NCBI GenBank assembly: GCA_026196875.1
Contig: JAPHTP010000112.1
Location: 1 to 64,000, forward strand
Reading direction: 5' to 3'
Origin: Kangiellaceae bacterium
GTDB taxonomy: Bacteria; Pseudomonadota; Gammaproteobacteria; Enterobacterales; Kangiellaceae
Length of the DNA: 64,000 nt
This document shows, piece by piece, positions 2,779-6,060 of this stretch (positions within the stretch are counted from its first letter, which is position 1; each line of letters starts with the position of its first letter). Position numbers and translations under genes: made by a program. The notes beneath the pieces are model-generated. The model ran no database searches. It was not told the origin of the DNA and worked only from the letters and a program-made list of their open reading frames with translations.

Positions 2779-3534
2779 TTACTCTAGCAAAACCTTATAA
2801 CCTCTTCGCGGAACCGTATGGATTATCTTGTGGTTATCAGAAACTTTAAATAATTTTTTCCTGAGATTGCAAATGTGCATATCAATACACCTATCTTCAT
2901 ACTGCAACCGCCTGCCTAGTACGACCAGCGACAACTGTTCTTTGGTAACCACCTCTCCACCGCTGCGAGCCAGTAGCACCAGGATACGAAATTCGACTTC
3001 CGTGAGAGAGACTATCTGATTGTCATACTCAACTCGATGTTGGCTTACGTAAATGGTTAACTTGCCGATAGAAACAATCGAGCCATGGGAGTAGATATTG
3101 CGATAGTTTTCAGATTCAACTCTGCGTAATGTAGACTTAATTCTTGCAACAACTTCACGATATGGCGTATCGACTAAGATTAAATCGTCAGCACCATTTT
3201 CCAAACCTATGACAATACTGCTTTCATCGTAATTCCGTGCGATCAAGAATACCGGAACAATACTCTCAAATCGGATGGCACTTAACATTTGAACAGAGTC
3301 GACAAAAGCCAATGAGCTATGGATGAGTATTAAATCGAATTGACCAGAAACTGCCATCGCTAATGAGCGATTTTCGTGTGAACCTAGAGTAAATTTAAAG
3401 CCATAGTTCTCAATTTGGTCAACTAAGCTTTTGTATTTATTAGCCTGATCGGTAATTAAGAGTATGCGCTTTTGCTTAGCCTTGATAGGTTTCTGGTTTT
3501 CTGTACCCATAGTAGGAGATAGAGTCGTAAACAA
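2779..3534 (-). CDS. CpxR-like OmpR-family regulator, degenerate receiver
   Basis: The start is set at TTG 3534 because GGGAGGA precedes it on the minus strand with standard spacing. A longer reading from TTG 3579 lacks a site, and ATG 3510 is also possible. The 251-residue protein has an N-terminal receiver-like domain and a C-terminal winged helix. The phosphoacceptor position is His: DLILIHSS replaces the usual DLxLLD (about H72). The conserved Lys-Pro is also missing (GADDLILVDTPY). The DNA-binding half closely follows CpxR: VLGRRL, DRCIDMHICNLRKKL and a final HTVPRRGYK. Inferred: a phosphorylation-independent DNA-binding regulator. No kinase gene is adjacent. The divergent region carries two GTAAA-type arrays, which suits autoregulation and control of the facing lipoprotein gene. 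Confidence 0.85.
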   Translation of the reverse strand: MFTTLSPTMGTENQKPIKAKQKRILLITDQANKYKSLVDQIENYGFKFTLGSHENRSLAMAVSGQFDLILIHSSLAFVDSVQMLSAIRFESIVPVFLIARNYDESSIVIGLENGADDLILVDTPYREVVARIKSTLRRVESENYRNIYSHGSIVSIGKLTIYVSQHRVEYDNQIVSLTEVEFRILVLLARSGGEVVTKEQLSLVVLGRRLQYEDRCIDMHICNLRKKLFKVSDNHKIIHTVPRRGYKVLLE

Positions 3535-3583
3535 AAGAGATCCTCCCGGTAAAAATATTCTAAACGCATAAGAATGCAATCGG

Positions 3584-3598
3584 TTTACATGGTGTGAC
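3584..3598 (-). promoter_or_regulatory. Possible extra GTAAA-type half-site pair
   Basis: On the minus strand this reads GTCAC-N5-GTAAA, one step from the GTCAA-N5-GTAAA units at 3621-3709. It lies about 50-65 bases upstream of the chosen start of the regulator. It is a weaker match and may be chance. Confidence 0.3.
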
Positions 3599-3620
3599 TA
3601 AAAAAAACTAATTTAGTTGA

Positions 3621-3645
3621 GTAAAGATATGTCAAGATTTGTAAA
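3621..3645 (+). promoter_or_regulatory. GTAAA-N5-GTCAA-N5-GTAAA array A
   Basis: Three pentamers spaced at exactly 10 bp (GTAAA 3621, GTCAA 3631, GTAAA 3641) lie between the divergent CpxR-like gene and the lipoprotein gene at 3808. The known CpxR box is GTAAA-N(4-8)-GTAAA, so this is a CpxR-like site with a third, phased half-site. The same 25-bp pattern recurs at 3685. Confidence 0.6.
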
Positions 3646-3684
3646 CCTGATGGCTAGGTTCATAATCTTTTAAAAATGCCTCGC

Positions 3685-3709
3685 GTAAAGAATTGTCAAG
3701 CTATGTAAA
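3685..3709 (+). promoter_or_regulatory. GTAAA-N5-GTCAA-N5-GTAAA array B
   Basis: Second copy of the array: GTAAA 3685, GTCAA 3695, GTAAA 3705. It starts 64 bp after the first copy, in the same orientation, and keeps the C in the middle half-site. The copy ends about 100 bp before the lipoprotein start at 3808. Confidence 0.6.
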
Positions 3710-3807
3710 TTATGCGAAATGTTGGAACTTTCGCAAAACAACCTGACTCTACAGTGTCACTAAAAATTTCAAAATAATCTGAAAGTTTGTAGAGATTAGG
3801 AGTAATT

Positions 3808-5298
3808 ATGAATATGTCTATCCGGTACTTTGGCAATGCTTTTAATAAGCAAAAAATTTCGAACTTAATGAAAACCTCTAGTTTAGCAGTCGCCTCTTTG
3901 TTTTTATTTGGGTGTGAATCTTCCTCAAGCGACACCGACGAAAATGGCTACTTGAAGTTTTACAATGCTTCACTCAACGCACCCGAAGTAAGAATTATGT
4001 TGACCAAGGATGATGAGTCCTCGAGTTATGGAACGGTCGAATATGGAGAATCGACTTCTTTACACACTATAGCTAGCGGAACTTACAACATGGAGTTGGA
4101 GTGGCAAGAAGGAAATGACGACTATAATTCTATTTATGAACAAGACATTTTAATAACTGATGATGACGTCGACTTGGTGGTGCTCACAGGTGACTTCGAT
4201 AGCCCTCAGATCTTGACTTTTGAATACATTGATGAAGATACCGAGCTTTATGACGAAACAGATGAAGATGATTTTTCATTAAGGGTAATTAATGTCCACA
4301 AGGACTCGGCTGGGATTGATTTGTACATGTCGGCCGAAGATGAGACCTTTAACGAAGCGGCTTTTATCGGTAGTGTCTATTATGGTGATATTTCGGCTAA
4401 TCACTACAAGGAAGTCGAAGAATACAAAATTTACATAACCGAAACAGGCAGTTCAGAAGTTGTTTTTGAAACCAATGAAATCAATTTCTCTAACAACCAG
4501 AACTATGTCATTTCGGTGAGACAAGAGACAGGGCCTAGTCAATCTCCTTATGCAATAGATATTCTGGTTGGGGACGCTACTCTCAGTTACTCTGACAAAA
4601 ATTCTGGCGCAGAATTAAGAGTTTACAATGGGCTTGTCCAACACCAACTACTACCTGAATTTGTTGATTCAGTCGATGTTGAGATTTACGGTGTTGAGCA
4701 GCAAGAACTTATATCAGATCTTGCTCGCGGAAGCATGAGTGAAACTTATAGTCTACCGAGCAGTGATTACTCTCTTGATATTTATCCCGCAGGCGTCGAT
4801 GTGGCTTTTGCCGAAAATCATTTTGTCAGCCTAGACTCAAACGATGACAAGTCTGCCTTTGTTTATCTCAATGAGGTAACCGAAGAGAATGACGACGGTG
4901 AAGATGAAACTTCGGTTTACGTGAATACTTTGATAGTGCCCAACAGTGACCGGATAAGTTTATACGATCACCAAATAACTGTAATAAACCTTGTGCAAGA
5001 CGAGGAGTTTAGTTCAATAAAAACCTATTTCGTGAGAAGTAATGAAACAGTTGAGAGTGCAGATTATAGTTTAACGTCTACCAGGGCTAACCCATCAACG
5101 ATTACCTTACCAAATAACACTTATGATGTAAGTTTAATTGTCAATGTAGACGACAGTGACCTATTAATTGATTTTCAAACGGTTACTTTGGAGGCTGAAG
5201 ATGGCGATTTCTTTATGCTGATCGAAAAGGATAGCTCCACAAATTCAGGATATTCCGCTAAATTTATCGCACAAAAGGACCAGGCCTCAGAAGATTAA
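3808..5298 (+). CDS. DUF4397-like repeat lipoprotein
   Basis: The ATG at 3808 follows AGGAG at 5-base spacing. The 496-residue product has an unusually long n-region (about 21 residues to a second Met), a hydrophobic stretch and lipobox LFGC followed by a serine-rich linker (ESSSSDTDE). The rest is acidic and made of about four similar beta domains with signatures like YLKFYNAS, LRVINVHKD, LRVYNGL and ITVINLVQD. This is the pattern of DUF4397 proteins, thought to be envelope-bound. It is divergent from the CpxR-like regulator and has the GTAAA arrays in its upstream region, so regulation by that protein is likely. No terminator with a T-run follows, only the hairpin at 5328-5357. Exact role unknown. 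Confidence 0.75.
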   Translation: MNMSIRYFGNAFNKQKISNLMKTSSLAVASLFLFGCESSSSDTDENGYLKFYNASLNAPEVRIMLTKDDESSSYGTVEYGESTSLHTIASGTYNMELEWQEGNDDYNSIYEQDILITDDDVDLVVLTGDFDSPQILTFEYIDEDTELYDETDEDDFSLRVINVHKDSAGIDLYMSAEDETFNEAAFIGSVYYGDISANHYKEVEEYKIYITETGSSEVVFETNEINFSNNQNYVISVRQETGPSQSPYAIDILVGDATLSYSDKNSGAELRVYNGLVQHQLLPEFVDSVDVEIYGVEQQELISDLARGSMSETYSLPSSDYSLDIYPAGVDVAFAENHFVSLDSNDDKSAFVYLNEVTEENDDGEDETSVYVNTLIVPNSDRISLYDHQITVINLVQDEEFSSIKTYFVRSNETVESADYSLTSTRANPSTITLPNNTYDVSLIVNVDDSDLLIDFQTVTLEAEDGDFFMLIEKDSSTNSGYSAKFIAQKDQASED

Positions 5299-5412: not shown

Positions 5413-6060
5413 TTACTTTGGGCGAACTTGAACTTTTAGTTTGAGCAGTTCCTGTAAATCTAGAGACAATAGATCTTCCGGTGTAACATCTAGCCCCGCA
5501 ATAATCACACCGTAAATCTGGTTATCTTCGATAATGGGAATCGATAGGTGGATTGAGTAATATTCCGTGCTTTGATCCCAGGCGGGTAAGCTCACATAAA
5601 GCTCTCGATTAATTACCGGGTTGGTAAACTTTTCTTCATCACCCTGCCAGTAATCTGTCGTTTTGGGGTAAGCAGATATTAACTCTCCCATATTGTTGGT
5701 GAACATCAACTCAGTAAATTGGAGTTTGCTATCATCGACTATTTGTTTAAAGTGATCAGCCAAGCTATTGTCCAGAATTTCACTTCGAAAAGACGCACTT
5801 ACAGACCAACTCTGCTCTTTCTTCAGGATCTCTACCAAGGAAGTCTGCTCTAAGGCGAGTTGTTTATATTTAGTATTGAGAATTTTCGTTCGGATAATTT
5901 GATAGAGCGGGTCTAAATGGCGCTTAACTATTTGCTTACCGTTGCTAATGGTATCCTTATTAGTTGTATTGGGTATAGCCGTTTTTGATTCGGAGGCGCA
6001 AGCCGTGGTGTGGCTAAATAATGCCATTAAGCAAACAAATAGTTTGGTATGCTCATTCAC
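5413..6060 (-). CDS. Secreted Cache-like (PDC) domain protein
   Basis: A GTG start gives a 215-residue product with a signal sequence ending near ACASES, processed by signal peptidase I or perhaps a poor lipobox. The body resembles the extracellular Cache/PDC sensor fold of chemoreceptors and kinases: a long helix (DPLYQIIRTKIL), then LMFTNNMGELISAYPKT, YWQGDEEKF, YSIHLSIPII and YGVIIAGLDV. There is no transmembrane helix, kinase, GGDEF or methyl-accepting domain after it, so it is a free sensor domain in the periplasm. No obvious ribosome site precedes the GTG and the start could be a little downstream. Such proteins may act as ligand-binding partners of a separate receptor, but that is inference. 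Confidence 0.65.
   Translation of the reverse strand: MNEHTKLFVCLMALFSHTTACASESKTAIPNTTNKDTISNGKQIVKRHLDPLYQIIRTKILNTKYKQLALEQTSLVEILKKEQSWSVSASFRSEILDNSLADHFKQIVDDSKLQFTELMFTNNMGELISAYPKTTDYWQGDEEKFTNPVINRELYVSLPAWDQSTEYYSIHLSIPIIEDNQIYGVIIAGLDVTPEDLLSLDLQELLKLKVQVRPK

Follow-up and report, generated by a model that had tools for sequence, protein, structure and literature searches.

Candidate CpxR-type operator arrays at a sigma-E-like promoter of a DUF4397 lipoprotein gene, next to a receiver-dead CpxR-like regulator in a Kangiellaceae genome

The window, i.e., the whole stretch of 64,000 nucleotides that was analyzed, contains two divergent genes with one common intergenic region. On the minus strand lies a CpxR-subfamily regulator with a dead receiver (2779-3534; longest frame 2779-3579), for which inspection by eye offers two starts, an ATG at 3510 or a TTG at 3534 preceded by GGGAGG at 3547-3542. 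On the plus strand lies a gene for a DUF4397 lipoprotein (3808-5298), the conserved gene of the locus and its presumed target, which shows two stretches of PF14344 and, by eye, an LFGC lipobox. A reading made from the sequence alone (the sequence-only reading) had called this lipoprotein 'facing'; the two genes do share the intergenic region, but their orientation is better described as divergent. Between them, GTAAA-N5-GTCAA-N5-GTAAA occurs as two exact plus-strand matches, the distal array A (3621-3645) and, 64 bp further start to start, the promoter-proximal array B (3685-3709), a candidate CpxR-type operator of the lipoprotein gene. Positions and spacing thus stand as first read. The term 'identical', which had been applied to both arrays, is correct for the half-sites and not for the spacers, because the sequences (GTAAAGATATGTCAAGATTTGTAAA and GTAAAGAATTGTCAAGCTATGTAAA) share 84% identity over 25 nt. 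Array B is followed by a degenerate fourth half-site, CGAAA (3715-3719). The weaker pair reported earlier, GTCAC-N5-GTAAA (3584-3598), was found again on the minus strand, directed towards the regulator gene, where it might, speculatively, form a putative site for the regulator's own promoter. A putative lipoprotein promoter of the sigma-E/ECF type spans 3724-3751 on the plus strand (GGAACTT at 3724-3730, 17 nt, TCTA at 3748-3751). A scan for sigma-70 promoters returned five sites against 3.9 in shuffles, which is no excess, and the intergenic DNA itself has no match in 40 other genomes. A 13-bp repeat (GTGTGACTAAAAA and GTGTCACTAAAAA) is located at 3592-3604 and 3754-3766, on either side of the array region. 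Convergent with the lipoprotein gene, a small minus-strand gene (5413-6060) has a weak match to a PDC sensor domain, below the Pfam cut-off.

Numbered from the ATG start, the regulator comprises a receiver (about residues 1-130) and a winged helix (about residues 150-240). The latter scores 66.6 bits for Trans_reg_C and the former 21.4 bits for Response_reg, below the cut-off of 30.2; the receiver of the source genome's own CpxR scores 106. In the alignment, TDQ stands in place of the acidic stretch, His in place of Asp51, Ala in place of Thr and Val in place of Lys, which bears out the His noted earlier at the phosphoacceptor position. DDD, Asp, Thr and Lys are present in 14/14 CpxRs, and both Asp and Lys are kept in all 16 other regulators examined in the source genome (the best matches to CpxR). 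The CpxR of this genome has Asp, Lys and Thr intact and is 52% identical to Escherichia coli CpxR, with which the window regulator shares 39% identity over 169 residues. Compared with three CpxRs, the winged helix is 34-43% identical and the receiver 23-27%. The recognition helix (EDRCIDMHICNLRKKL) is closely similar to that of the source genome's CpxR (FDRSIDMHLSNVRKKL), a tree of winged helices places the regulator within the CpxR clade (96/89) on a long branch, and among NCBIfam models it matches CpxR best (129 bits, short of a cut-off of 341 that the genome's CpxR also misses with 250 bits). The DNA-binding half is therefore CpxR-like, as had been proposed. In 13 of 14 genomes the best match of the regulator coincides with the best match of CpxR (for the source genome, the best after itself); the remaining genome, G003, is absent from the match list. 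By best match and clade the regulator belongs with CpxR, and by the NCBIfam cut-off, the phosphorylation residues and the partner kinase it does not: a search at E 1e-8 across the window's first 10 kb found no CpxA-like kinase. It does fit the definition of a pseudo-receiver response regulator, having a receiver-like domain devoid of phosphotransfer residues. No orthologue appeared among 148 other relatives (best 37% among the listed matches), in genome_contigs, or in a set of 393 further genomes sampled from the order (best 39%; this set overlaps with the 148 relatives). Neither did tblastn against plasmids return a match of at least 60% identity among the matches listed (best 36%). A single-sequence AlphaFold model of the regulator has a mean pLDDT of 37 and was set aside.

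Of 394 genomes sampled from the order, 60, the source among them, have a homologue of the lipoprotein (E 1e-20 or better). A strict pair with 10/11-bp period lies upstream of 17 of 30 homologues and a triple upstream of eight (source included), whereas dinucleotide shuffles of the same 30 regions yield on average 0.39 regions with a pair and 0.004 with a triple. The control counts were 2/30 for downstream regions and 3/30 for the reversed pattern. Among 65 upstream regions, relaxed triples are found in 21 (0.125 in shuffles); a forward array is present in 26, only a reversed array in 13 and none in the remaining 26. The reversed arrays of L197, L200 and L203 have the exact GTAAA-GTCAA-GTAAA order of the window, and these and other reversed arrays are located upstream of the more distant lipoprotein homologues. 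Conservation at orthologous loci had been named beforehand as a test of the sequence-only reading. On the lipoprotein side, the arrays are kept at many homologues, albeit with 26/65 regions lacking one; on the regulator side, no orthologous regulator locus was found.

By that reading, the arrays would be an operator used exclusively by the dead-receiver regulator next to them, and this protein would be the sole controller of both itself and the lipoprotein, independently of phosphorylation. The CpxR-like winged helix and the divergent position favor such an arrangement, as do the kinase-less CpxR-like regulators that adjoin the lipoprotein in 7/65 regions (window included) and the two separate triples, a configuration present only in the source genome among the regions listed. 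The distribution of the arrays argues against it. A relative of the regulator occurs within the 1.5-kb flanks of 9/30 loci (source included) and of four of the 17 loci with a pair, so that no such regulator lies within 1.5 kb in 13/17 array-bearing regions. Likewise, blastp detected no relative of the regulator in 16-17 kb around the lipoprotein in G004, G008, G005, G011 and G002 (in G011, a receiver-bearing protein is encoded 5.6 kb away), and nevertheless these loci carry three half-sites (G004), two (G008), two plus GCAAA (G005) or, in reversed orientation, two (G011) and three (G002). By this distribution, the arrays go with the lipoprotein rather than with the regulator. Arrays occur where the neighboring regulator is absent, and the genome encodes an intact CpxR whose recognition helix is closely similar; the main binder is therefore more likely to be ordinary CpxR, and sole control by the adjacent regulator is both unsupported and, in our estimation, unlikely.

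The regulator could instead be a decaying, non-functional duplicate of CpxR, with CpxR alone acting on the arrays. Its sub-threshold receiver, its long branch and the lack of orthologues in the sets of 148, 393 (overlapping) and genome_contigs fit this explanation; its open frame and the better preservation of the winged helix do not. Also at odds with it are six other genomes in which a CpxR-like regulator with a damaged or missing receiver directly follows the lipoprotein gene on the same strand. In G166, Asp and Lys are kept and the acidic pair is lost; in G194, G078 and G097, Asn replaces Asp and Lys is gone; in G221 and G367, only a winged helix is left, starting 11-13 nt after the lipoprotein gene. 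Scanned for three of the six, the Pfam receiver scores 37 bits in G166, 32 in G078 and nothing in G221, with winged helices near 70. No CpxA-like kinase was present in the fetched stretch of these six loci, although the G194 contig ends 0.9 kb past the regulator and a kinase may follow there. At the lipoprotein promoters of the six, G166 and G221 have a pair, G194, G078 and G097 have GTAAG-GTAAG-GCAAA, and G367 has a relaxed triple. Together with the window regulator, receiver loss beside the lipoprotein thus extends to seven genomes. That six of them retain such proteins at the same lipoprotein, two as a winged helix alone, argues for a DNA-binding role that has been kept, and mere decay of the duplicate is improbable. 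The six kinase-less regulators form one clade (97/94). A reduced tree groups the window regulator with the CpxRs to the exclusion of these six (82/60), whereas AU tests reject neither its placement with the six (p 0.319) nor with the CpxR of the family (p 0.279). Receiver loss would therefore have occurred in at least one, perhaps two lineages. Elsewhere, genes for an intact CpxR-like regulator and for a kinase come after the lipoprotein gene (G275, G351), or such a pair lies upstream of it (G023). The lipoprotein-adjacent regulators of G010 and G201 belong to other regulator groups and were left out of the CpxR-like count. At L183, L184 and L185, where the half-sites read GTAAG, the recognition helix of the neighboring regulator is LDVHVSN rather than IDMHxSN, a possible case of co-variation between site and protein.

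The cpxR promoters bear on the identity of the main binder. In 11 of 13 genomes of the group, this promoter carries arrays built from the same half-sites; six of the 13 have three GTMAA half-sites, in three cases as GTCAA-GTAAA-GTAAA with an 11-bp period. The source genome's cpxR promoter (GTAAAGGTTGTGTAAA) also has an 11-bp period, versus 10 bp in the lipoprotein arrays, and E. coli cpxR has GTAAAACAACGTAAA at -70. Direct repeats with a 10/11-bp period are usual for the OmpR family as a whole. Together with the 123 matches to CpxR in the source genome (kinase receivers included), this leaves room for another OmpR-family regulator of the genome as the binder of the arrays. We consider such a regulator rather unlikely, as the same half-sites at cpxR in 11/13 genomes are what is expected of an autoregulated CpxR. 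Published CpxR boxes agree as well: in the available part of PMC12802237, a box consists of GTAAA-type half-sites repeated directly with 4-8 nt between them, a description that the window arrays fit, and the listed Pseudomonas aeruginosa sites include GTCAA half-site variants. The main text of PMC8041468, considered as a further source for the CpxR motif, does not name CpxR. From the half-sites at cpxR promoters, the listed GTCAA variants and the intact CpxR of the genome, CpxR emerges as the likeliest candidate binder.

The sigma-E consensus consists of GGAACTT and TCTA separated by 16-17 nt, and the element at 3724-3751 fits it. Counted from the end of array B, GAAC starts at offset 15 and CTCTA at 37, which puts GGAACTT two helical turns away with CGAAA in the gap; read by eye, array A has no in-register GAAC downstream. 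The spacing recurs: of the 26 forward arrays, 20 have GAAC 5-7 or 15-16 bp further on, compared with 0.43 for base shuffles (maximum 5), at offsets from the last half-site of 5 (12 regions), 6 (three), 7 (one), 15 (three) and 16 (one). These offsets were picked after inspection of the GAAC positions in the same 26 forward arrays, and the count covers forward arrays only. GAAC-N17-19-TCTA follows in 9/26 forward arrays (0.07 in shuffles) and in 0/26 array-less regions. In G005, whose lipoprotein is 36% identical, GAAC is 36 bp away. RpoE scores above the family cut-off in 9/9 genomes searched, the source included. A GAAC...TC element was recognized upstream of two of eight rpoE genes examined, and the pattern used detects none within 260 bp of the source genome's rpoE. 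Because both elements end in TCAA instead of TCTA and the source's rpoE has none, the use of sigma-E here is uncalibrated. None of the 11 array-bearing cpxR promoters has GAAC in register, and hence CpxR arrays do not regularly include GAAC. A composite search (GTAAA-N5/6-GAAC-N17/18-TCTA) in seven genomes of the genus gave three matches, one of them at the G004 lipoprotein, against two for the control; as the window GAAC is two turns away, it is not matched by this pattern, and no regulon is claimed from it.

Whole-genome counts of the motif were dropped as proof of the arrays, since they do not exceed those of the reversed control. GTMAA-N5-GTMAA-N5-GTMAA matches twice in the source genome, each time at this locus, but the reversed pattern is equally frequent (two). 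Across 40 family genomes, the triple has eight matches versus 12 for the control, and GTAAA-N5/6-GTAAA pairs number 65 in the source genome versus 88. Four of the eight family triples are upstream of a DUF4397 lipoprotein gene. The motif is unexceptional by count; its position is what exceeds chance. Chance repeats, which these counts would allow, are contradicted by the recurrent position and register upstream of homologues and are highly improbable.

Taken together, we favor, with reasonable confidence, that array B is a CpxR-type operator from which the lipoprotein gene is activated at the adjoining sigma-E/ECF-type promoter, with the dead-receiver regulator as a probable co-binder. The basis is one of sequence, namely arrays that recur with the lipoprotein, the GAAC/TCTA register, the half-sites at cpxR, the intact CpxR and RpoE. 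Regulator dimers would line up on a single face of the helix, bound to half-sites in head-to-tail order, and the -35 element would follow one or two turns downstream. CpxR would be the main binder and sigma-E would read the promoter, with activation of the lipoprotein under envelope stress as the predicted effect. The dead-receiver regulator probably binds the same half-sites constitutively, irrespective of phosphorylation, and would either add to or compete with CpxR, its own dose being the signal. An extra layer of control by this regulator may involve array A and the weak pair on the minus strand.

Among known systems, the CpxR box (GTAAA-N5-GTAAA) of the cpxP-cpxRA promoter resembles the present arrays in half-site, direct orientation and 10/11-bp period. 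The arrays differ from it in having two to four half-sites at a strict period, an adjoining GAAC/TCTA promoter and a DUF4397 lipoprotein gene downstream. Overlapping double boxes can be read for P. aeruginosa CpxR at muxA and yceJ from two predicted sites 11 bp apart (PMC12802237, available part). By analogy, the closest precedent for the window regulator is SsoR (SO2426) of Shewanella oneidensis, an orphan CpxR-like regulator that, in the portions of the sources at hand, has a CpxR-like recognition helix and a predicted box and acts without phosphorylation (PMC3127752, PMC12442407). SsoR, however, keeps its Asp, is described there as locked in an active state and concerns siderophore genes under Fur, whereas the window regulator lacks Asp, Lys and Thr. 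ChxR and HP1043 are OmpR/PhoB-type pseudo-receiver proteins, winged-helix regulators whose receivers function without phosphorylation; a 2025 review, as far as its available text goes, describes receivers of this kind and calls the control of pseudo-receivers a mystery (PMC12632262). In the present case, by contrast, the dead receiver belongs to a CpxR-subfamily protein next to a CpxR-type operator that recurs, and relatives show varied stages of loss. Joint control of one envelope operon by sigma-E and CpxR is described for E. coli psd-mscM in the available part of PMC8138132. There, two promoters are 197 nt apart and the CpxR box is at the second, while here the array abuts the sigma-E-like -35 element.

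A broader reading, which we put forward tentatively, is that in these Gammaproteobacteria the DUF4397 lipoprotein module is wired to the envelope stress response through a composite CpxR-array/sigma-E promoter, and that adjoining CpxR-derived regulators have turned into constitutive, dose-driven operator binders. Phosphorylation would then have been lost at least once, perhaps repeatedly, through loss of the acidic pair, replacement of Asp by Asn or by His, or loss of the entire receiver. If true, evolution would have left, at a single promoter, a natural series of steps leading from two-component to one-component control. The relatives display different degrees of receiver loss. The promoter is small and testable, and the intact CpxR probably shares its candidate sites with a receiver-dead relative. 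Envelope stress is also a functional lead for the little-studied DUF4397 lipoprotein family, for which none of the available papers naming DUF4397 points to such a link by title or opening of the abstract. Some lipoprotein loci (L213, L218, L219, L220, L223 and L224) have a protein of about 700 residues encoded directly after the lipoprotein gene; L218 and L223 were examined, and at both loci this protein proved to be a hybrid histidine kinase of the GAF/PAS kind that carries a receiver of its own, a possible sensory link. Two further sites were also noted. TGTAAAGTTATGTAAA (G000:C108:25559-25574, L069) lies between two divergent genes that, by eye, encode small lipoprotein-like products. TGTAAAGCTTTGTAAAG (G000:C133:29734-29749, L070) precedes, again by eye, a TetR-type-like gene and then an efflux membrane-fusion-like gene, and is a possible CpxR target.
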